The notes under the pieces are model-generated. The model had not been told where the DNA came from, did not search any database, and worked only from the letters and a program-made list of their open reading frames with translations. A DNA stretch of 64,000 nucleotides, taken from assembly GCA_017612555.1 (NCBI GenBank), contig JAGAFR010000034.1, positions 1-64,000 on the forward strand, given 5' to 3'. The DNA comes from Lachnospiraceae bacterium. Lineage in GTDB: Bacteria > Bacillota > Clostridia > Lachnospirales > Lachnospiraceae. Below, piece by piece: positions 180-11,491 of the stretch. A program made the position numbers and the translations under genes. Position 1 is the first letter of the stretch, and every line of letters starts with the position of its first letter.

Positions 180-265
180 GCCGCAGTGGCGGAATTGGCA
201 GACGCCCGGGACTTAAAATCCCGTGGGTAGTAATACCCGTGCCGGTTCGACCCCGGCCTGCGGCA
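180..265 (+). tRNA. tRNA-Leu (anticodon TAA)
   Basis: The acceptor stem GCCGCAG (180-186) pairs with CTGCGGC (258-264), and the discriminator A is at 265. The anticodon stem CGGGA/TCCCG encloses the loop CTTAAAA, giving anticodon TAA at 214-216. A long variable arm (GGGTAGTAATACCC) marks a class II tRNA, as expected for leucine. No CCA is encoded. It lies in the same direction as the tRNA-Asp and could be co-transcribed with it. Confidence 0.97.
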
Positions 266-370
266 CTAGATCTTTTATCATATTTATTAACTGTTCTTGA
301 CCATATCAAATATCGGTATAGATAGACTCAAACAGGCATAATTACATAATCATAGTTAAGGAAGACTGAT

Positions 371-1090: not shown

Positions 1091-1120
1091 TTGTTATGCT
1101 TCACATGTTAATGTTATAAT
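1091..1120 (+). promoter_or_regulatory. Promoter of the RiPP precursor gene
   Basis: The -35 TTGTTA (1091-1096) and a perfect -10 TATAAT (1115-1120) are separated by 18 bases. A TG at 1112-1113 makes an extended -10. It is followed 20 bases later by AGGAGG (1140-1145), spaced 6 bases before the precursor ATG. This is a strong expression signal for a short peptide. Confidence 0.75.
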
Positions 1121-1151
1121 TGAAAAAAATATATTTCACAGGAGGTAGAAA

Positions 1152-1406
1152 ATGGATTACAACGAATTCCGTAAGAAAATTGTTACTGATGACGATTTCG
1201 CAAAGAAATTCACCGATGCGAAGGATCCGGCTACTTTGATCAAGCTTGCAGCTGCCGAAGGCTACAACTTTACTGAGGATGACATCAAAAATAATACGGA
1301 AATACTTCCGGAAGAGCTGGAGAAGATTGCTGGAGGTAGTGCTAACAGCACCATTGCATACGCGGATTGGTTTGTTACGCCATCAACGATTGTTACACCA
1401 AACTAA
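1152..1406 (+). CDS. Nif11-type RiPP precursor peptide
   Basis: The product is 84 residues. Residues 1-62 resemble the Nif11 (nitrile-hydratase-like) leader: an acidic helical segment beginning MDYNEFRKKIVTDDDFAKKF, the 'AAAEGYNFTEDDI' stretch, then ILPEELEKIAGG with the double-glycine cleavage site at 61-62. The predicted core is residues 63-84 and is quite different in composition: no Cys, no Lys or Arg, rich in Ser, Thr, Pro and aromatics (AYADWF), with STI and VTP each occurring twice. Two radical SAM enzymes follow at once, which makes this a ribosomally made, post-translationally modified peptide. No exporter or protease is in the window; a C39-type ABC transporter elsewhere would be expected. 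The mature product is not predictable. Confidence 0.87.
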   Translation: MDYNEFRKKIVTDDDFAKKFTDAKDPATLIKLAAAEGYNFTEDDIKNNTEILPEELEKIAGGSANSTIAYADWFVTPSTIVTPN

Positions 1407-1443
1407 ATTCCGTTACCTTTAAACTGATGTTTTTGAGAAACGA

Positions 1444-1474
1444 GGGAGAAGAAGATTGCTTCTTCTCCCTTTTT
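1444..1474 (+). terminator. Intrinsic terminator between precursor and radical SAM genes
   Basis: A perfect 11-bp stem GGGAGAAGAAG / CTTCTTCTCCC (1444-1454 with 1459-1469) and a 4-base loop are followed by five Ts. Partial read-through would give much more precursor mRNA than enzyme mRNA, a common arrangement in RiPP operons. I see no clear separate promoter between it and the enzyme gene. Confidence 0.85.
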
Positions 1475-1529
1475 AAATTAATTCTTTTGTTGGAAATTGT
1501 TACAAAAATGACATTGGGAACTAATCATT

Positions 1530-2492
1530 ATGAAATTTGAAAGGCTCAGTCTCGTCTTAACGGACAGGTGCAATGCTGCTTGTGACTTTTGCGGTTTTTC
1601 ATGTACCCCTAAAAACAATCATGTAATGGACGTGCAGATGATGGAACGTATCATACGTGAGGCTAAGACAATGGGAATCAGAGCTGTTGGCTTTAGCGGA
1701 GGGGAACCTTTTTTGTATCCGGAACTTTTGGAAAAAGGTTCTAAAATTGCGAAAGAAGAGGGCATGGAGGTTAATATTGCGACCAACGGCTTCTGGGGTG
1801 CGTGGGAGGATGATAAAATCGATGAAATACTAAAAAGGATTCGACCGAATTTTATCGGCATAAGTTATGATGACTTTCATCGAAAGTTCATTCCTGAAGA
1901 TGTATTTTTTAAAGCATTATCCCATTGTTATGCTCTGAATATAAAAACTAGGGTCTTTGTCGCCGACTTAAAGGATGAACATGCGGCCGGTCGCTTTCTG
2001 ATGAGCCTTGACAACCGAAGGTTTCGGGTTCCCATGTTCATCTATCCCGTCTACCGCTGCGGACGCGCTCGTCATATGCCGTCCGAGTGGTTTCTTACGT
2101 ACAAATACGAGGATGTACATATCACTTGTCTCTCCGAACATGCTATATCAGTTCTTTATAACGGCGATATATATCCCTGTTGTCGCCACCAGGTCTACGA
2201 ATCAGCAATGAAACTTGGAAATGTCAGCAATATGTCCCTGCAAGAGGGTATAAACAAAAGTGATGTTCCCAAAATATGCGACGTTCTGATGCATAATGAT
2301 CGTTTTAAATATCTGGTGGATAAGGCGAAGGACATTGGTATCATCGTACCGGAAGAAGCAGGCTGCTCCTGCGACTATTGTCGAGCATTGTTTGGAACAG
2401 AAGAAAACATGCAGAGGATGCTTCCCTTTGTAGAGGAACTCTATGGAAAAATGTTAGTCAGATCCATACTGAATGGGGTAGGAGAATCATGA
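1530..2492 (+). CDS. Radical SAM peptide-modifying enzyme 1 (SPASM-like)
   Basis: The 320-residue product begins with the radical SAM cluster-binding motif C14-x3-C18-x2-C21, has the SAM-contacting GGEP at 57-60 and the ATNGFWG strand near residue 85. The C-terminal third has further cysteines of the SPASM/twitch type: YPCCRH (around residue 217) and CSCDYC (around 279), which likely hold one or two auxiliary iron-sulfur clusters. Enzymes of this layout modify RiPP precursors by hydrogen abstraction. It follows the Nif11-type precursor after a terminator and overlaps the second enzyme by 4 bases (ATGA). The ribosome site before the ATG is weak. The chemistry (epimerisation, C-C or ether cross-link) cannot be told from sequence. 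Confidence 0.85.
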   Translation: MKFERLSLVLTDRCNAACDFCGFSCTPKNNHVMDVQMMERIIREAKTMGIRAVGFSGGEPFLYPELLEKGSKIAKEEGMEVNIATNGFWGAWEDDKIDEILKRIRPNFIGISYDDFHRKFIPEDVFFKALSHCYALNIKTRVFVADLKDEHAAGRFLMSLDNRRFRVPMFIYPVYRCGRARHMPSEWFLTYKYEDVHITCLSEHAISVLYNGDIYPCCRHQVYESAMKLGNVSNMSLQEGINKSDVPKICDVLMHNDRFKYLVDKAKDIGIIVPEEAGCSCDYCRALFGTEENMQRMLPFVEELYGKMLVRSILNGVGES

Positions 2493-3472
2493 GAAAGGCA
2501 TTAAGCACAAAATCTGTCATTTCAAAGATAGCTATCGCTATGACAGATAAGTGCAGCGCATCCTGCGAAATGTGCTGCTTTAAATGTTCACCCGAGGGCA
2601 AGAATACCTTAAGCACGGATTTCATGAAAGATGTTATTTTGCAGGCAAGCAAAATTAATGGAATCCAAAGCATCGGATTTACCGGTGGCGATCCTTTCAT
2701 GGTCTTTGACCAATTGCTGGAATGCAGCGCTTACGCTCATTCGCTGGGACTTCGTGTTTCCGTCAATACTAATGGATTCTGGGGGAAAAATGAAAAAAGA
2801 GCCTTTGAACTGGTTGGAAAACTGAAGGAAGCAGGAGTGGAGTCAATGTCCTTTTCGGCTGACCACATACATCAGGAATATGTTCCCATTGCAGATCTAA
2901 AGATGGCCATGCGGGCAGTTACAGCCCACAACATGTTACTTGATGTCACTATCATGGAAACTTCCACTTCCGAAAATATAGTCCGCATGACCGAGGCGCT
3001 TCGCCCTGAGATCTACCAATCCAGTATAGCTAACCACCCAATGTTGCCGGCCGGGAATGCACTTGAGAAGGTTAAAGAAGGCGAATTTATCCGCTATTTT
3101 GCATCAAAGGCGGCGTATTGTCCTTTTTTTGGGATGGCCAGCCTGAACTTTGACGGCAATTATTATATGTGCTGTTCCCAATTTTGCAGGGAAATCCCAC
3201 CCCTGAACCTTGGCAGTGCGCATGAGGTAAAGCTTGCGGATTTGGACAGAAGGATTTCTTCTAACGATTACTTGTACGTTATGCTTCGTAGAGGGCTTTC
3301 CTGGTATGTGGATCTTGCCGGTCAATTGGGATATGAGATTCCACAGTATCTGTGCTCCCCTTGTCACTGCTGTTACTACGTGTTCCGCAACGAAAAACTT
3401 CTCGATGAGATTAAAGAAACTGTAAAAAATGAGGCGGGGCGTCTCCGCGTCAGTCACCTTTTAGGGAATTGA
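2489..3472 (+). CDS. Radical SAM peptide-modifying enzyme 2 (SPASM-like)
   Basis: Starting at the ATG in the ATGA overlap with enzyme 1, preceded by GGGTAGGAG, gives 327 residues. A longer in-frame reading from 2378 would run inside enzyme 1 and is unlikely. The core motif is C22-x3-C26-x2-C29, followed by TGGDP (in place of GGEP) and a TNGFWG strand very like that of enzyme 1, so the two look like diverged duplicates. The C-terminal part is cysteine-rich (MCCSQFC; CSPCHCC), as in SPASM proteins with two auxiliary clusters. Translational coupling suggests equal amounts and perhaps a heteromeric enzyme or two sequential steps on the same precursor. Confidence 0.85.
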   Translation: MRKALSTKSVISKIAIAMTDKCSASCEMCCFKCSPEGKNTLSTDFMKDVILQASKINGIQSIGFTGGDPFMVFDQLLECSAYAHSLGLRVSVNTNGFWGKNEKRAFELVGKLKEAGVESMSFSADHIHQEYVPIADLKMAMRAVTAHNMLLDVTIMETSTSENIVRMTEALRPEIYQSSIANHPMLPAGNALEKVKEGEFIRYFASKAAYCPFFGMASLNFDGNYYMCCSQFCREIPPLNLGSAHEVKLADLDRRISSNDYLYVMLRRGLSWYVDLAGQLGYEIPQYLCSPCHCCYYVFRNEKLLDEIKETVKNEAGRLRVSHLLGN

Positions 3473-3500
3473 TGTTGCTGTCAAAAAAGAACCCATATCT

Positions 3501-4127
3501 TTAAGGCGTTCCAAGTATCCACGAAAATGCCCTGGCACATCTGATATCAACATCTTTAAAATGATTACCCTCATTCCATTCAAGTGAGCATCTGATTCCT
3601 TGATCTTTTATCGATTCATATGTCTGTCTGATACAGTCCCCGACAGTGCGCATCACGGGATTCTTAGTTTTTTCTTCACGATCCCCGAGACTAAGGTATA
3701 CTGCGCCGGTACGGATCCTATGGTCTTTGATGTAGTCGGTAAACCCGGGAAACCAGACGGAAGGGGATGCCGCGGCTACGCCGGAAAACAGATCGGTCTG
3801 ATATGCAGCCCACAGCGAGAAAAGTCCCGCAAGGGAGTATCCGCCAAGGTAATATGTCTTTGATGGATCAGTACATATGCCGGTGATTTCTTCAAGCGTA
3901 TCGGTTGCCCCGTTACCGAAATCTTCTTTTCCGAACACGGCGGGACTGCACCAGGGAGACAGGTCAGCGTTCCAGTTTCCAATCTTTATTGCAACAAGGT
4001 GAAAATCATCCCCGGCCAGTTCCTGAATGATCTTTACTTCACTTTCTATCAACTTCAGATCATGCTCGTCCACAGGCTGAATAAGCACATTTGATGATTT
4101 TTCATTCCCGAAATCAAAACAGTTCAT
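3501..4127 (-). CDS. Putative esterase, alpha/beta-hydrolase fold
   Basis: The 208-residue product has a nucleophile elbow GGYSLAGLFSLW near residue 95 (G-x-S-x-A-G), an AASPSVWFPGF segment typical of the Fes/esterase D type putative esterases (PF00756), and a closing EGNHFKD with a candidate catalytic His. No signal peptide is seen, so it is probably cytoplasmic. It converges on the second radical SAM gene with only 28 bases between them. Being on the other strand it is probably not part of that operon, though a role there is not excluded. The substrate is unknown. Confidence 0.7.
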   Translation of the reverse strand: MNCFDFGNEKSSNVLIQPVDEHDLKLIESEVKIIQELAGDDFHLVAIKIGNWNADLSPWCSPAVFGKEDFGNGATDTLEEITGICTDPSKTYYLGGYSLAGLFSLWAAYQTDLFSGVAAASPSVWFPGFTDYIKDHRIRTGAVYLSLGDREEKTKNPVMRTVGDCIRQTYESIKDQGIRCSLEWNEGNHFKDVDIRCARAFSWILGTP

Positions 4128-4274: not shown

Positions 4275-6983
4275 ATGGTAAAAATCAAATGGAAAAAAGC
4301 GATGGCTGCTGCCGTTGCGGCTGCCATGACAATGATGGCTGTACCGTCAATGGTATTTGCGGATGAGATTACAGAACCCGAGGAGATCGTGGTATACGAG
4401 TCTGAAGACGCAGAACAGGCTGATGGCATAGTTTTTGAATCTGAGGATGAAACTGAAGTTGAGACGGAAGAAGCTGACGTTTTTGCATCGGATAACTGGG
4501 AAGATCCCACAGCGTATACTCTGGGTCAGACTGTTAGCGGAAAAGCGGGCGTGGATGTAAGAGCCTACTATAAGATTTCCAATCTTGCAAAGACCGGAAG
4601 GTACCGTGTTACGGCATCATCCCGAGACGGTGATTTTTACGTAAAGATCGTTGATACCGCAAAAGCCTTTACGGAGACGTCATTTAAGGGCTTGAATTGG
4701 GAACGTCCCACTTACAAGAATACGGATTCAGGTGATTATGAACTGAAGGATGAAACTGTGGACCTTCTTGCAGGCAAGGACTATTGGATAGTTATATACA
4801 AAGGAGTTACATTTAAAGAAGAAGTGGATTTCGACTTCAAAATGGAACTTGAGAATGAGGTAACAGGATGTAAAAAAGACGATCCGTGGACTCTTACGTT
4901 CAAGAGTAATAAGTGCAGCGGGAGAGGAACGCTCTTTGCCACTTTCAGGAATAACGGATATGGCTATAGGGATATCGAAGAAGATCCATACGAATACGGT
5001 CATCATTATTACAAATTCCATCTTGAAGAGCCCGGAAGGTTATGGATCGACTCTGACTCATCGGAAAAGGGTGTAACTTGGGTATACAGTAATGATATGA
5101 ATTTTGATTCACTTGCAAAACTTTATTGGAAACCGGCCGGATCAGGTGAATATACAGAAAAGAAAAAAGATTATGTGGATCTTATAGGCGGCGATTATTA
5201 CCTGAAGGTATATAACACAGAAGATGATAATGTCGATTATTCTTTCGCAATGGATTTTAAGCCCATAAAGGTTGCAAAGGGTGAACTTCCTGCTTTTGAC
5301 ACTGTAGTTGGAGGTTCGAATAATACACAGGATGATGCTTTTGATATTGAGGTCGATCAGTTATATGTAGCACAGTCAACGCAGGATAACTGTAACAAGT
5401 TTGACTGGTTCCACTTTGTCCTTCCAAAGGCGTCACCTATATATGTGGAACTGGCTACTACAGAGGTAGGGTATGTCGGGTATTCGAATTTAAATAAGGG
5501 TAAAAATTATACCGACGGTGTCAGCGTATTCGGATCACCGCTTCCGCATGTTTACGCACCTGATGGAGTAAATGATAAGAATAATGAGTATTTTGGGGAA
5601 TCAAGTACTCCGTTCTATAGCAGTGATACAGATTTCAGGGCGAAGAAAGCTTCCGTATTTCCGGCGGGGGAATACTGGATCCAATTCTCCAAAGGTAACG
5701 GTATGCCGATCGATGGTGAGGGCCATTCGATACCCGGTACCGGTTGCTATAAACTAAAAATCTCTACCGGCCCGAAGGCACCTGTAACAGCTGTCAAGAT
5801 AATCGATCCGGCAACCAAGAAGGCAATATCAGCTTATGAAATGACCAAGAACTCTACCAAGACCCTGACATATCAGATTTCTCCGGATACGACAGAACAG
5901 GGTGCATCGTGGAGTATTGATAATACCGATACCGCGACGATCGATTCTGAAACGGGTGAGATCAAAGCAAAATCAGCAGGTACAGCAACAATTACGGTTA
6001 CCACGTTAGCCAAGAAAAAAGATGGCAAGAATGCTACCGCAACATGCAAGTTGACAGTACTTGATCAGGAGATAAGTGACACTACGAAGGATCTTCCTGA
6101 AACAGCCAATGTTGTTTCGAATGAGAAGATCGGTCTGATCAATGACAATTATTTTGGAAAAGACTTTGTAACAGCATCTACGGATAAATGGGTGGTTAAG
6201 GATGCCGAAACCGATACGATCAACAAAAAGCTCGGTTCTGTTAAGAAGGATAAGGAATTGGGCTGGGTATTTGCTGCCGGCAGTAAGATAAACGGTAAAG
6301 CAAAGATCAAGGTCACAAGACAAACGAAAGTCGGCAAGAGTTATTTTGATAACGGTAGCGTCACATTTACAGTCGAAGCTCCGAAGTATTTCAAGGATTC
6401 AAAGAAAAAGGATATAAAGACGATAGATGTGTTAAAGGCCGGAGTCGAAGTTAAACCTGAAGAAATGATCGATTTTGGAGAGGCTACCGTTAAACCAAAT
6501 CATTATGAATGTAATGATAAGAAGGGACTGGTTGAGTTTGATAAAGATACAGGAGTTCTCAAGGTTCTTAAATCAGGAACCTTCAAAGTTACAGCATACT
6601 ACGGATATGACGCTTCTGCAGGAAAGAATGCAGCTAAGAATGCGGGCAAGATCGAATACACAGTTAAGGCTAAGCTTCCTACCGTTAAGGATGCAAAGGT
6701 TAAGCCTAACGCAGCGGGCGGAAAGGATAAGATCGTAACTGTTGCGGTTTCAAACGTTCCCAAGGGCATTAATCTTGCGGATACTGACTGGAAGGCTGTA
6801 ACGGTTGATGAAAGCGGTAATCCGACAACTACGCCGGCGGCGTTTGTAATTACGCCCGTGAAGGTTAAGGAAAGTTATACGAAGTGTACGGTTGCGATCC
6901 CTGCAGCTACACCTGCTCAGAAATTCGCTGTAGTTGTAACTGTAGATGATGTAGATTATCCGGCCATTGTAACCGTTAACTAA
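4275..6983 (+). CDS. Large secreted protein with bacterial Ig-like domain, paralogue A
   Basis: The 902-residue product starts with a clear signal peptide (basic KIKWKK, hydrophobic Ala/Met core, cleavage near VFA-DE at about residue 30), then an acidic Glu/Asp/Val-rich stretch. Residues about 75-490 contain repeated beta-rich units that each end with phrases like 'DYWIVIYKG' or 'EYWIQF', resembling pre-peptidase-type carbohydrate-binding or adhesive modules. Residues about 500-600 look like a BIG_2 Ig-like domain (SWSIDNTDTATID, SAGTATITVT). Residues about 703-902 form a C-terminal region shared almost word for word with the protein at 8744. There is no LPxTG or membrane anchor. AGGAGGAAG precedes the ATG. 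The role is probably cell-surface or extracellular; the exact function is unknown. Confidence 0.8.
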   Translation: MVKIKWKKAMAAAVAAAMTMMAVPSMVFADEITEPEEIVVYESEDAEQADGIVFESEDETEVETEEADVFASDNWEDPTAYTLGQTVSGKAGVDVRAYYKISNLAKTGRYRVTASSRDGDFYVKIVDTAKAFTETSFKGLNWERPTYKNTDSGDYELKDETVDLLAGKDYWIVIYKGVTFKEEVDFDFKMELENEVTGCKKDDPWTLTFKSNKCSGRGTLFATFRNNGYGYRDIEEDPYEYGHHYYKFHLEEPGRLWIDSDSSEKGVTWVYSNDMNFDSLAKLYWKPAGSGEYTEKKKDYVDLIGGDYYLKVYNTEDDNVDYSFAMDFKPIKVAKGELPAFDTVVGGSNNTQDDAFDIEVDQLYVAQSTQDNCNKFDWFHFVLPKASPIYVELATTEVGYVGYSNLNKGKNYTDGVSVFGSPLPHVYAPDGVNDKNNEYFGESSTPFYSSDTDFRAKKASVFPAGEYWIQFSKGNGMPIDGEGHSIPGTGCYKLKISTGPKAPVTAVKIIDPATKKAISAYEMTKNSTKTLTYQISPDTTEQGASWSIDNTDTATIDSETGEIKAKSAGTATITVTTLAKKKDGKNATATCKLTVLDQEISDTTKDLPETANVVSNEKIGLINDNYFGKDFVTASTDKWVVKDAETDTINKKLGSVKKDKELGWVFAAGSKINGKAKIKVTRQTKVGKSYFDNGSVTFTVEAPKYFKDSKKKDIKTIDVLKAGVEVKPEEMIDFGEATVKPNHYECNDKKGLVEFDKDTGVLKVLKSGTFKVTAYYGYDASAGKNAAKNAGKIEYTVKAKLPTVKDAKVKPNAAGGKDKIVTVAVSNVPKGINLADTDWKAVTVDESGNPTTTPAAFVITPVKVKESYTKCTVAIPAATPAQKFAVVVTVDDVDYPAIVTVN

Positions 6984-7170: not shown

Positions 7171-7389
7171 ATGATAATAAACAGTTCAAAAGACTTTGGT
7201 GCTACTATCAGAAAGCGCAGAAAAGAACTGGGATATACACAGCGATACATTTCTGAATTCACCGGCTTCAGTATAAGTTTTATATCGGATCTGGAGAACG
7301 GTAAGAGTACGGCTGAGCTGGGGAAAGCCATCTATCTTGCCAATATGCTTGGACTAGATGTTGCAGTTGATGCGAGGGGAAGGCAATGA
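7171..7389 (+). CDS. hipB: HipB-like antitoxin, XRE-family DNA-binding protein
   Basis: The 72-residue product is almost entirely one helix-turn-helix domain: FGATIRKRRKELGYTQRYISEFTGFSISFIS..LENGKSTAELGKAIYLANMLGLDV, the usual XRE/HipB pattern. Its stop codon overlaps the hipA start (ATGA at 7386-7389), the standard order of antitoxin before toxin. By family it should neutralise the HipA kinase and repress the operon at the dyads just upstream. The ribosome site is AAGAGGACGA. Confidence 0.85.
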   Translation: MIINSSKDFGATIRKRRKELGYTQRYISEFTGFSISFISDLENGKSTAELGKAIYLANMLGLDVAVDARGRQ

Positions 7390-8660
7390 GAAGATTCGAT
7401 GTATTTATTGAAGTTTCAGGAAAACAGATAAAGATTGGAAAAATCGAGGGGAACACTTCCGAGGATGCCCGGTTTTCATACGATAAAGAATACATATCCG
7501 GGATCGGTTCCAAGGCAATTTCGATATCGTTACCTATAGAGGAAGAGCCTTTTTCGCCTGAGCAAACAAGAACCTTTTTTGACGGACTTCTTCCCGAAGG
7601 CTTTATGAGAACGTCTATTGCAGGCAGTATGCACTTTGATGAGAATGATTACCTTTCGATCCTTTATAACCTTGGTAAGGAATGTATCGGTGCCATAAGG
7701 ATTGATGAAACGGACGAGGAGCCCGAATCCGGTTATGAGGTTATTGATTCAAAACAGGTAGAGGAACTTGCAGCAAATGGAGCTGCCAAGTCCGCGGAGA
7801 TGTTGATCAGAACACATTTGTCACTTACCGGTGCATCAGGAAAAGTCGGCCTGTACTATAATGAAAAAGAAAGATGCTGGTATTTGCCGCATGGGCTAGC
7901 GCCCAGTACTCATATTGTTAAACAAAGCCATATCAGGCTTGACGGAATAGTTACCAATGAGCAGCTGTCAATGTTGACAGCACGTAAATGCGGGATAGAT
8001 ACTCCTGAGAGCTTTATTATCAATGTCGGAAATGGTGAGGATTCAGAAGTGCTATTCGCGACAAAAAGATATGACAGGATCATTGACGGAACATCCGAAA
8101 TAATAGACGGGCTGAAGCGTCCGTTTCGGATACATCAGGAAGATTTTGCGCAGGCTATGGGAATACCTTCATCCCGGAAATATGAGAGCGATAGTAAAGA
8201 CTATGCAGTAAAAATGTTCGATATCATCCGCAATAATGCTGTGAACCCATTAGAGGATCAACTGAGCCTTTGGAACAGGATCGTATTTAATTATGCGCTT
8301 GGGAATACGGATGCCCATATTAAGAATTTCTCGCTTCTTTATGATCCTCATATGGAAGGGATACGCCTTGCACCTGCTTATGATATGATCAGCACGGTGA
8401 TCTATGACAGCTCAACACGTGATATGTCCTTTAATATCGGGGGGATGAGAAATATTGACAGCGTTAATGAAGATAGCTTCAGATCACTGGCATCAAAGGT
8501 TGGTATAGGCGAAAAGCCGGCTATGAGCAACTATCAAATGGTGCTTGACTGTTTTGAAAAATCAATAAAAGAAGCGGCAGACGAATTGCAGGAGAACGGA
8601 TTGTATAATGCCGGTGACATTGCCGAAAGGATTCTTATGGCACGAAAAGCATTATTGTAG
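7386..8660 (+). CDS. hipA: HipA-family Ser/Thr kinase toxin
   Basis: The 424-residue product has the three expected parts: an N-subdomain 1 with FFDGLLPEGF near residue 60, a HipA_N segment with LTGASGKVGLYYN near 145, and the HipA_C kinase core with GNTDAHIKNFSLLYD near 306-320 and APAYDMIST, the catalytic and metal-binding loops. These residues look intact, so it is probably active. Known HipA kinases phosphorylate glutamyl-tRNA synthetase and slow growth. It is coupled to hipB by a 4-base overlap. The pair sits between two paralogous secreted-protein genes, as if inserted between them or as a stabiliser of the region. Confidence 0.88.
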   Translation: MRRFDVFIEVSGKQIKIGKIEGNTSEDARFSYDKEYISGIGSKAISISLPIEEEPFSPEQTRTFFDGLLPEGFMRTSIAGSMHFDENDYLSILYNLGKECIGAIRIDETDEEPESGYEVIDSKQVEELAANGAAKSAEMLIRTHLSLTGASGKVGLYYNEKERCWYLPHGLAPSTHIVKQSHIRLDGIVTNEQLSMLTARKCGIDTPESFIINVGNGEDSEVLFATKRYDRIIDGTSEIIDGLKRPFRIHQEDFAQAMGIPSSRKYESDSKDYAVKMFDIIRNNAVNPLEDQLSLWNRIVFNYALGNTDAHIKNFSLLYDPHMEGIRLAPAYDMISTVIYDSSTRDMSFNIGGMRNIDSVNEDSFRSLASKVGIGEKPAMSNYQMVLDCFEKSIKEAADELQENGLYNAGDIAERILMARKALL

Positions 8661-8743: not shown

Positions 8744-11491
8744 ATGCGAAAGAATGAAAAGTTGTTGAGAAAGGTTTTCGCAGGACTTGTTGCTGCAGCG
8801 TGTGTTGCAACAGCTGTTCCCGCAAGTGTATTTGCGTCGGAAACTGTTGACGTCTACGAAGATGAGGCAGTGATATCAGAGTCCGAGGCAGAGGTTACGG
8901 AAAACGCATCAGCAGAAGATGAATTTGCTGATGAAGTTATCGTAGAAGAAGAGGTTTCTGAGCCGGATAAGGAAGAAAATCCCGATCTTACGAAAGCAAA
9001 AGAGATAAAACTTAACAAGGAAGTAACAGGCATTACATCAATGGAGAGTTTTGCCATCTACAAGTTTAAGCCTGATACGACCGGAAGGTACGCGATCAAC
9101 GGATCATATACGGTGCAGGGATACCCGGAATTGAAGGGGGAATTTCTGCTCAGGCTGTTTGACGGAGATAAGTATGTAACCAGCAGAACGGATGGATGTT
9201 ATTATCACGACAATAGAAGTTCATACAATTTGGAGAATGAACCTTATGATCTGATAAAGGATACATGGTATTATCTTGTCGCTGAGCCCCGCAGAGAAGG
9301 ACCTCCCATAGATTTCAACTTCACGGTCTCATTAATGTATGAGGTTACATTATCTACGAAGGAAGATCCGGTAGATGTTGCCTTTAATAAGGAATACGTA
9401 GGTCATTGCTGCCCTGATGGATTCATGAACACGGATCATGGCAAATTAGGATATATTCAGCATTATTACAAGTTTTCACTTAAAGAGCCGGGAACTTTCA
9501 CCTTCCATATTGAAGATGATTCCACAAGGCCTACATACCCTTATAAGACCAATACGGTATATACGATATGCAATAATATTGATGACATCCTTTCCAGTAC
9601 CGGAACGAATATGTCATGGCAATACCATACTCATGACAAAGAGAGTTATGCAACAACAACTCACAATACATGGCTGAATACGGGAGATGATTCGGATGAG
9701 GCCCGGATCAGTCTTCTTGCAGGCGAGTATTACCTCGTGATATGGGGAAATATCGGAACCGGATATGACAAGGCGCTTAATTACAAATTCAAGCTTAAAG
9801 ATTATAAGGCGTTGCAGAAGAAGGGTTCGGAGACGCTCCTGATCGATACCCGTGTAAACGGAAGCAACGATAACGTTAACTTTAAGGCAACAGGCTACGG
9901 AGAGTACTACGAAAAAGAAGCCATGCCCGTAGTAGAGACCAATAAGTATTATCGAGGGATCCTTACGGAAGACAGTAGGATTGATTATTATCATTTTACA
10001 CTTCCCAAAAAAGGACCGTTATATATGACACTTGAATCCGATGATTGCATCGGAAAATGCTTTGTTACACTGAGATACTGGAGTAATAATCCCAGATTCT
10101 ATTCCGAATCCGGCACTGACGTAATAATGCAAAGTGATGAGTACTGTGCTACACCCGACAAGCCACTTAATTCTACTCAGTTATTGAACTCTTATTATGA
10201 AGATCCTAGTATCGTCTATAAAAAGCTTAAACCAGAATTTATGGCCGGAGAATATGTTATAGGTATTCTGACACAAAAAGTTACTGACGAAAGCAACAAG
10301 ATTAATTTAGGTGAGTCCGGACAATACAGATTTATGATCTCCACGGGTAAAAACACGGATAAGCCCGTAAAGTCCCTTAAACTCGATCCGACAGTAATAC
10401 CTATGTCTGTGAGTGAAAAGGCAACGTTAAAAGCTTACGTTAATTCAGAAGCTACAGATCCGACTGTAGATTTCAAGGTGGAACCCGAAGGAATCGCTAA
10501 GGTCACAAAGATCACCGATACACCGGTAAAAGGTGTTACAGAATTTGAAGTGGAGGCACTTACAAAGGGACAGGCTAAAATAACAGTCACAACAAATGGC
10601 GTCAATTCAAAACAGAAGGCGCTTACAGCTGAGTGCGTAGTTTCTGTAATAGACAGCAAAGCATGTGGCTATCTGGCAGAGAAACAGAAAGTGGATCTGA
10701 AGACAGCGGATTACTTCAATGATTCTACCATTGGAAAAAATGATAAGTTTGAAGTTACACCTAAGGGTGTAGGATCAGTGTCAAACGGATTCTTTACTGC
10801 CAAGAAGGAATGTGAAAATGTTACTGTCACATGGTATAGAAAAGATGAAAAGGTTTATGTGCCCCAGGGCAAGATAACACTTATCATCGAGAAACCGAAG
10901 TATTTCAAAGACGGCAAGAAGGATATAAAGAACAAGGATGTAGTCAGAAAGGGAGATGAGGTAACACCTTCTCAGATGATCAACTCCGAAGGGCTTCATA
11001 TCATTCCAAATTATTATGACTGCAATGCAAAAGAAGGTTTCGTAGAATTCGATCATACAACAGGACTTCTTAAGGTTCTTAAATCAGGAAACTTCAAGGT
11101 GACCGCTTACTACGGATATGATGCTTCTGCCGGAAAGAATGCAGCTAAGAATGCAGGCAAGATCGAATACACTGTAAAGGCTAAGCTTCCTACCGTAAAG
11201 GACGCAAAGATTAAGCCCAATGCGAGTGGAAAGGATAAGATCGTAACTATTACGGTTTCAAATGTTCCTAAGGATATCAAGCTTACTGCCGATGCATGGA
11301 AGGCAGTCAAAGTTGGGGAGGACGGAAAACCCACATCAGAAAAGGCTGATTTTGAACCCTCTCCTGTGGCAGTAAAGGAGAGCTATACAAAATGTACGGT
11401 TGCAATCCCTGCAGGTACCCCTGCACAGAAGTTTGCGGTAGTAGTTACCGTAGACGGTGCAGACTATCCGGCCATAGTAACTGTTAACTAA
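8744..11491 (+). CDS. Large secreted protein with bacterial Ig-like domain, paralogue B
   Basis: The 915-residue product has a signal peptide (RKNEKLLRKVF, then a hydrophobic stretch ending ASVFA-SE near residue 31), an acidic linker, beta-rich modules in the middle, a BIG_2-like segment at about 538-640, and the same C-terminal region (about 720-915) as the protein at 4275, ending DYPAIVTVN. Identity between the two is modest in the first two thirds and very high at the end, even in DNA. No sortase signal or membrane anchor is visible. AGGAGGAAAAGAA precedes the ATG. Both are likely exported and held at the surface by the shared C-terminal part or released; this is inference. Confidence 0.8.
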   Translation: MRKNEKLLRKVFAGLVAAACVATAVPASVFASETVDVYEDEAVISESEAEVTENASAEDEFADEVIVEEEVSEPDKEENPDLTKAKEIKLNKEVTGITSMESFAIYKFKPDTTGRYAINGSYTVQGYPELKGEFLLRLFDGDKYVTSRTDGCYYHDNRSSYNLENEPYDLIKDTWYYLVAEPRREGPPIDFNFTVSLMYEVTLSTKEDPVDVAFNKEYVGHCCPDGFMNTDHGKLGYIQHYYKFSLKEPGTFTFHIEDDSTRPTYPYKTNTVYTICNNIDDILSSTGTNMSWQYHTHDKESYATTTHNTWLNTGDDSDEARISLLAGEYYLVIWGNIGTGYDKALNYKFKLKDYKALQKKGSETLLIDTRVNGSNDNVNFKATGYGEYYEKEAMPVVETNKYYRGILTEDSRIDYYHFTLPKKGPLYMTLESDDCIGKCFVTLRYWSNNPRFYSESGTDVIMQSDEYCATPDKPLNSTQLLNSYYEDPSIVYKKLKPEFMAGEYVIGILTQKVTDESNKINLGESGQYRFMISTGKNTDKPVKSLKLDPTVIPMSVSEKATLKAYVNSEATDPTVDFKVEPEGIAKVTKITDTPVKGVTEFEVEALTKGQAKITVTTNGVNSKQKALTAECVVSVIDSKACGYLAEKQKVDLKTADYFNDSTIGKNDKFEVTPKGVGSVSNGFFTAKKECENVTVTWYRKDEKVYVPQGKITLIIEKPKYFKDGKKDIKNKDVVRKGDEVTPSQMINSEGLHIIPNYYDCNAKEGFVEFDHTTGLLKVLKSGNFKVTAYYGYDASAGKNAAKNAGKIEYTVKAKLPTVKDAKIKPNASGKDKIVTITVSNVPKDIKLTADAWKAVKVGEDGKPTSEKADFEPSPVAVKESYTKCTVAIPAGTPAQKFAVVVTVDGADYPAIVTVN

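Follow-up and report, generated by a model that had tools for sequence, protein, structure and literature searches.

We analyzed a three-gene cassette in a 64,000-nucleotide stretch of DNA from a Lachnospiraceae bacterium (positions 1 to 64,000 of contig JAGAFR010000034.1, assembly GCA_017612555.1), hereafter called the window. The cassette encodes the precursor of a ribosomally synthesized and post-translationally modified peptide (RiPP), carrying a Nif11-type leader, followed by two radical S-adenosylmethionine (SAM) proteins, both of which are relatives of the characterized epimerase EpeE, also named YydG. Judging from the sequences, the cassette probably performs epimerization by EpeE-type chemistry, yielding a D-amino-acid-containing peptide from the Nif11-leader precursor. 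An earlier note on this DNA had described a Nif11-type precursor beside two radical SAM enzymes as a RiPP locus, which family models support, and had held that its core matches no known RiPP class. This second claim survives in part: the enzymes miss the YydG cut-off, the precursor is not of the YydF family and the genome yields no EpeP-type protease, but both enzymes are EpeE/YydG relatives and the Trp-Phe-Val (WFV) motif of the core resembles the YFV of YydF peptides. The locus belongs to a known kind as a variant, and not to an unknown class.

The precursor and the two enzymes

The 84-residue precursor scores above the cut-offs of both TIGR03798 (53.8 bits, cut-off 32.3) and PF07862 (38.4 bits, cut-off 23.8), which bears out the earlier description of a Nif11-like leader ending in Gly-Gly. 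The leader comprises residues 1-62 and ends in EKIAGG, and the predicted core comprises residues 63-84, SANSTIAYADWFVTPSTIVTPN, which include Trp, Tyr and Phe. The whole precursor contains no cysteine, which rules out a sactipeptide or ranthipeptide (thioether) reading, and its leader is of the Nif11 type and not the nitrile-hydratase-leader (NHLP) type of TIGR03793, which likewise rules out a proteusin reading. Among the TIGR and NF models, the only match besides TIGR03798 is a sub-threshold one to NF038399; no match to the YydF-family model TIGR04077 is listed up to an E value of 1, while a Macrococcus YydF used as a positive control scores 75.8 bits. The window precursor is the only TIGR03798 match in its own genome.

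Both enzymes carry the CxxxCxxC motif (C14/C18/C21 in enzyme 1, C22/C26/C29 in enzyme 2), the four auxiliary-cluster cysteines (C200/C217/C281/C284 and C211/C228/C292/C295) and an equivalent of EpeE Cys223 (C218 and C229), in agreement with the earlier account of an adjacent radical SAM pair with this motif and later cysteines. The ATGA overlap that had been reported is formed by the enzyme 1 stop and the enzyme 2 ATG at 2489-2492; this ATG sits inside a longer, TTG-started open reading frame (ORF). The EpeE/YydG equivalog model TIGR04078 is the best family for both enzymes, at 152.2 and 152.5 bits relative to a cut-off of 300. Enzyme 2 matches the EpeE structure chain 8ai6_A with an E value of 6.2e-29, and the predicted fold of enzyme 1 is EpeE-like along nearly its whole length in a comparison that covered this enzyme and Foldseek's top 1000 chains, so that unlisted families could still match. 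Within this family, the reference enzyme is, to our knowledge, the EpeE of B. subtilis.

Conservation of the three-gene order

Close relatives of the enzymes are rare. A family search at 1e-10 matched enzyme 1 in 7 and enzyme 2 in 8 of 299 genomes, the window's own genome included here as in the wider searches, and within the genus enzyme 2 was found in one of 37 genomes, the window's own. An order-level profile search at 1e-20 matched 16 of 392 genomes. Surroundings were examined in eight of these (G000, G465, G401, G591, G390, G615, G541 and G443), the remaining eight being partial matches only and outside the neighborhood comparison, and the cassette was present in two of those examined, the window's and G465. 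Profile searches also matched 3 of 38 genomes in the family of G465, none of them new, 5 of 391 in the class and 2 of 398 in the phylum; the cassette was absent from the four further class genomes examined, and the phylum match G1238 lay outside the neighborhood comparison. When contigs were scanned with enzyme 1 alone as the query, no relative was confirmed, and a scan with a two-row enzyme 1 alignment gave 91 relatives. Among the best 80 of these, surroundings were examined for L095, L096 and L145; L097-L173 (77 loci, L145 included) served only as a control set. We treated L094 (JAITPB010000103.1, a Clostridiales bin) as the same locus as L084, the cluster of G465.

Among the surroundings examined, enzyme 1 orthologues occur in four clusters, namely those of the window, L084, L095 (an uncultured Ruminococcus bin) and L096 (a Coriobacteriaceae bin, orthologue at about 2785-3582). 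Each of the four has a Nif11-type precursor directly upstream of enzyme 1 and enzyme 2 directly downstream, with the L096 copy of the latter truncated where the contig stops. The window, L084 and L095 precursors score above the TIGR03798 cut-off, and the L096 precursor was recognized by tblastn similarity (best E 4.7e-9). The three-gene order, which the earlier note had proposed to look for elsewhere, thus recurs in other genomes, indicating that the locus is more than a chance arrangement. In a 24-row tree, the four enzyme 1 rows group together (99/99), apart from those of enzyme 2, which form a group of four of their own (97/95), with the caveats that L096 enzyme 1 has a long branch and odd composition and that L096 enzyme 2 fills half of the columns. 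Compared with the window proteins, enzyme 1 shows identities of 39 and 36% and enzyme 2 identities of 37 and 38%, and the two enzymes of the window and of L084 are 22-31% identical to one another. The separate clades, the shared order and the identities across clusters indicate that the enzyme pair is old and has been retained with its precursor.

The L096 cluster bears on whether both enzymes epimerize. Its enzyme 1 keeps CxxxCxxC and lacks equivalents of C200, C217 and C218 and of the C-terminal CxxC, before which it ends; it has YPTY where EpeE has YPCC. This protein is unlikely, from its sequence, to epimerize as EpeE does, and is either a decaying copy or has a role for which the lost cysteines are not needed. 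With the enzyme 2 gene next to it, which the contig end cuts before the region of any later cysteines, it lends weight to an alternative that we consider unlikely, namely that only one enzyme, most likely enzyme 2, epimerizes, the other being a partner, a substrate-presenting subunit or a second-step enzyme of other radical chemistry, for example one that forms a cross-link or cleaves a bond. The separation of the two clades fits this alternative, as does a three-residue deletion shared by enzyme 1 of the window, L084 and L095 and absent from the enzyme 2 rows. So does the core motif, since some radical SAM cross-linked peptides have Trp or Tyr beside Phe. However, enzyme 1 of the window, L084 and L095 retains every EpeE cysteine, the predicted fold of the window's enzyme 1 would leave it EpeE-like almost throughout, and L096 is a single 4,067-base contig of a metagenome bin.

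Predicted product, processing and export

We propose that two sister EpeE-type radical SAM epimerases receive the core from the Nif11 leader. Each enzyme would cleave SAM and remove the C-alpha hydrogen of an aliphatic residue, and a hydrogen would be returned on the opposite face by the enzyme's own cysteine, C218 or C229. The likeliest site would be V75, in ...DWFV..., then I80 and V81, and the two enzymes would probably divide the sites between them or work in sequence. V75 is preferred because it follows Trp-Phe as the epimerized Val36 of EpeX follows Tyr-Phe. EpeX is epimerized at Val36 and Ile44, according to a passage of PMC8326336. The Macrococcus YydF peptides contain DLWYFVKSDKNRW[IV], in which the V and the I/V align with columns 36 and 44 of the YydF profile, 49 positions long (offset 2), and this alignment with the EpeX sites likewise makes V75 the first candidate.

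The cores of the relatives are ADVLASTYFVSTGTVFAKNYFVQK in L084, FAIFAKGWFVVKGGSIMADGYFTA, YTIFASGWFLDGDTIYAGGYFIK and a longer, GYFI-containing core in L095, and ARFIGPNINRVAC in L096. The motif [WY]F[VIL] is present in five of these six cores, the window's included, and single-core shuffles produced it at frequencies of 0.0004 to 0.07 for the five. It is absent from five further double-glycine peptides encoded next to the clusters.

Several observations weigh against epimerization by both enzymes, in addition to the lost cysteines of L096. In the L096 core, F-I alone stands in place of [WY]F[VIL]; the motif had been chosen with the sequences already in view, and three of the six cores are paralogues. 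When relaxed to F[VIL], the motif no longer rises clearly over shuffles (0.07 to 0.54), and the five-peptide control has little power because shuffles expect the motif in only 1-3%. Both enzymes fall far below the equivalog cut-off. The position of EpeE Asp210, counted back from Cys223 without gaps (the residue is mutated in entry 8ai6), is non-acidic in both, being Ala in enzyme 1 and Met in enzyme 2; it is Asp in L084 enzyme 2 and Glu in both Macrococcus YydG proteins. The EpeE-like relatives L031, L085 and L188 accompany quite different peptides, and no exporter or protease was recognized beside the cassette, the rest of the 64 kb not having been annotated gene by gene.

Two further readings draw on the same evidence. 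It is improbable that both enzymes perform non-epimerase radical chemistry on the aromatic core, such as aryl or aliphatic cross-linking; the names of other radical SAM families (TIGR04103) tie them to nif11-class peptides, the core has Trp, Tyr and Phe, and neither enzyme reaches the YydG cut-off, while the intact EpeE cysteine sets described above favor epimerization. Somewhat more credible, though still doubtful, is a distinct RiPP class with a dedicated Nif11 leader and two divergent EpeE-descended enzymes as an obligate pair, one setting the D-configuration at WF-V and enzyme 1 having shifted to a different site or a different C-alpha radical reaction. In that case, the loss of the auxiliary cluster and the hydrogen-donor cysteine from the Coriobacteriaceae enzyme 1 would mark a transition from epimerase to something else.

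For the epimerized product that we favor, the likeliest maturation route would be Gly-Gly cleavage by a C39 transporter. The own genome encodes three C39-peptidase proteins above cut-off, on other contigs, whose frames of 726-735 residues suggest that they are ATP-binding cassette (ABC) transporters. A search for the EpeP/LiaK metalloprotease (NF058609), for which the B. subtilis control was positive, gave no matches at E 0.001 in this genome (89.74% complete), and the L095 cluster adjoins an NHLM exporter pair (TIGR03796, 943.6 bits; TIGR03797, 735.0 bits; both above cut-off). We regard the C39 route as likeliest because of these three observations. An unlinked C39-peptidase protein would cut at the Gly-Gly site, after Gly62, and export a 22-residue linear peptide. 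That the locus is instead decayed or silent is very improbable: the lack of a recognized exporter or protease beside it and its confinement to one genome of the genus would fit, but all three frames and their motifs are intact, a promoter-like site and a terminator-like hairpin are present, and the C39-peptidase proteins are available elsewhere in the genome.

EpeE-like enzymes occur in other settings as well. Five further genomes of the same bacterial family (L030, L032, L034, L087 and L090) have them next to NF058609-matching proteins, at 41.8-84.2 bits (cut-off 225), of which the L087 protein fits a daptide protease model better (82.3 vs 64.2); L034 and L090 also have YydF-like peptides with WYF[VI] (30.8 and 16.3 bits, cut-off 35). 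At L089 (G390:C64, 2053-5739), two EpeE-like enzymes are interleaved with three double-glycine peptides whose cores are Val/Gly-rich, e.g. GVKIVVVGGVVVVGAGAVAVAVVGA, making these sequences candidates for many-fold D-Val peptides. L189 (G861:C1, 8575-13941) combines, in one run, an EpeE-like enzyme, a class II lanthipeptide synthetase, LanM (581.4 bits, cut-off 304), and Val-rich short ORFs, and an epimerized lanthipeptide is a possible product. L188 (G845:C8, 8558-10597) has a tandem EpeE-like pair that falls outside both pair clades in the tree, a 44-residue peptide ending in VKVGNVYVDVA and a 547-residue ORF that looks ABC-transporter-like by eye. L084 (1361-2803) and L095 (10031-11509) each encode a third, larger radical SAM protein, 29% identical to one another, which perhaps acts on nearby Cys-containing double-glycine peptides; it is not found beside the window cassette.

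If a conserved pair of EpeE relatives works with a Nif11 leader, radical epimerization would reach a second leader system, whose export is probably of the C39 type, and the division of sites between paralogous epimerases could be tested directly. The L096 relative without the catalytic cysteine would offer a natural experiment on the role of that cysteine and of the auxiliary cluster. Annotation that rests on the YydG cut-off or on a YydF leader would leave these loci unnamed.

Surroundings of the cassette and known systems

The contig (199 kb, in an assembly of 2.5 Mb) starts at base 1 of the window, and its very first bases resemble by eye a cut tRNA that ARAGORN does not list. The cassette is preceded by cobI (precorrin-2 C20-methyltransferase, 171.9 bits, cut-off 163.25), and its elements follow the order given in the table. 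Its GC content of 42.9% is near that of the window (44.5%).

Table. Features of the cassette and its flanks, in window coordinates.
Feature	Position	Strand	Evidence
tRNA-Leu gene	180-266		ARAGORN
Promoter-like site, TTGTTA-18-TATAAT, TG before second hexamer	1091..1120	+	10/12 consensus matches
Nif11-leader RiPP precursor, 84 residues	1152..1406	+	TIGR03798 and PF07862, both above cut-off
Intrinsic-terminator-like hairpin and T-run, between precursor and enzyme genes	1442..1471	+
Enzyme 1 (rad1), EpeE-like radical SAM protein, 320 residues	1530..2492	+
Enzyme 2 (rad2), EpeE-like radical SAM protein, 327 residues	2489..3472	+
Esterase-like ORF after cassette	3501-4127	-	Pfam Esterase E 0.059, below cut-off

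The start of the locus in the earlier note, 1091, is the first hexamer of the promoter-like site; the region holds 7 sites of this kind vs 5.8 expected (standard deviation 2.4), a number that does not exceed chance. The hairpin has a folding energy of -21.1 kcal/mol (z -5.86), with none of 200 shuffles as good, in a region with four terminator-like sites vs 2.7 expected (standard deviation 1.8). It would be expected to favor precursor over enzyme transcripts. Farther downstream, a short helix-turn-helix-like ORF (by eye) followed by HipA (HipA_C 164.6 bits, Couple_hipA 79.5 bits) at 7171-8660 is a HipBA-type module, and two long secreted-type proteins at 4275-6983, which has a Big_2 domain, and 8744-11491 are closely similar in their C-terminal parts.

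A mobile or phage origin was tried and rejected: enzyme 2 has no match in phages, no relative was confirmed in IMG/VR viral contigs, and the 16 plasmid records matching enzyme 1, which include two annotated YydF/YydG loci of Macrococcoides/Macrococcus, are all below 60% identity. The cobI gene is present in 21 of 37 genus genomes, the window's included. In the cobI loci of the 20 relatives, compared up to about 1.5 kb on each side, nothing clearly matches the window's upstream or downstream DNA or its esterase-like ORF, and recent gain or loss of the cassette is therefore not shown.

No paper naming both Nif11 and YydG was found in a full-text search, preprints and most subscription journals lying outside it, and the layout may already be in print there. 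Passages of papers that name both epipeptides and Nif11 treat the two apart.

Among known systems, the proteusin epimerases (PoyD, OspD and PlpD) share with our reading a long leader and radical SAM epimerization, which includes Val/Ile (in a passage of PMC8326336), but proteusin precursors have NHLP leaders. The leader family TIGR03798 is shared with the ProcM prochlorosins, described as Nif11 peptides in a passage of PMC10783134, and with the peptides of the nif11-type radical SAM maturases TIGR04064 and TIGR04103. Those peptides are modified by other enzymes: enzyme 2 of the window scores 29.1 bits against TIGR04103 (cut-off 725), and enzyme 1 of L084 and L095 scores 23.3 and 36.3 bits against TIGR04064 (cut-off 518.7). 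The ruminococcin C cluster likewise has two radical SAM enzymes, RumMC1 and RumMC2, in a RiPP cluster of gut Clostridia (in a passage of PMC8188230), but these form thioether bonds and the window precursor has no cysteine.

Another close system is the epipeptide cluster epeXEPAB/yydFGHIJ of Bacillus subtilis, and D-Val / D-allo-Ile is a mark of mature epipeptides. The window differs from it in a Nif11 Gly-Gly leader in place of YydF, in two divergent enzymes vs one, at half of the equivalog cut-off, and in having neither an EpeP-type metalloprotease in the genome nor EpeAB ABC transporter genes as neighbors, the enzymes being flanked by cobI and the reverse-strand esterase-like ORF on a contig that begins with the window. 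It shares with the epipeptides the same eight cysteines in its enzymes, the same predicted fold for enzyme 1, and a short, Cys-free core with an aromatic-Phe-Val motif.
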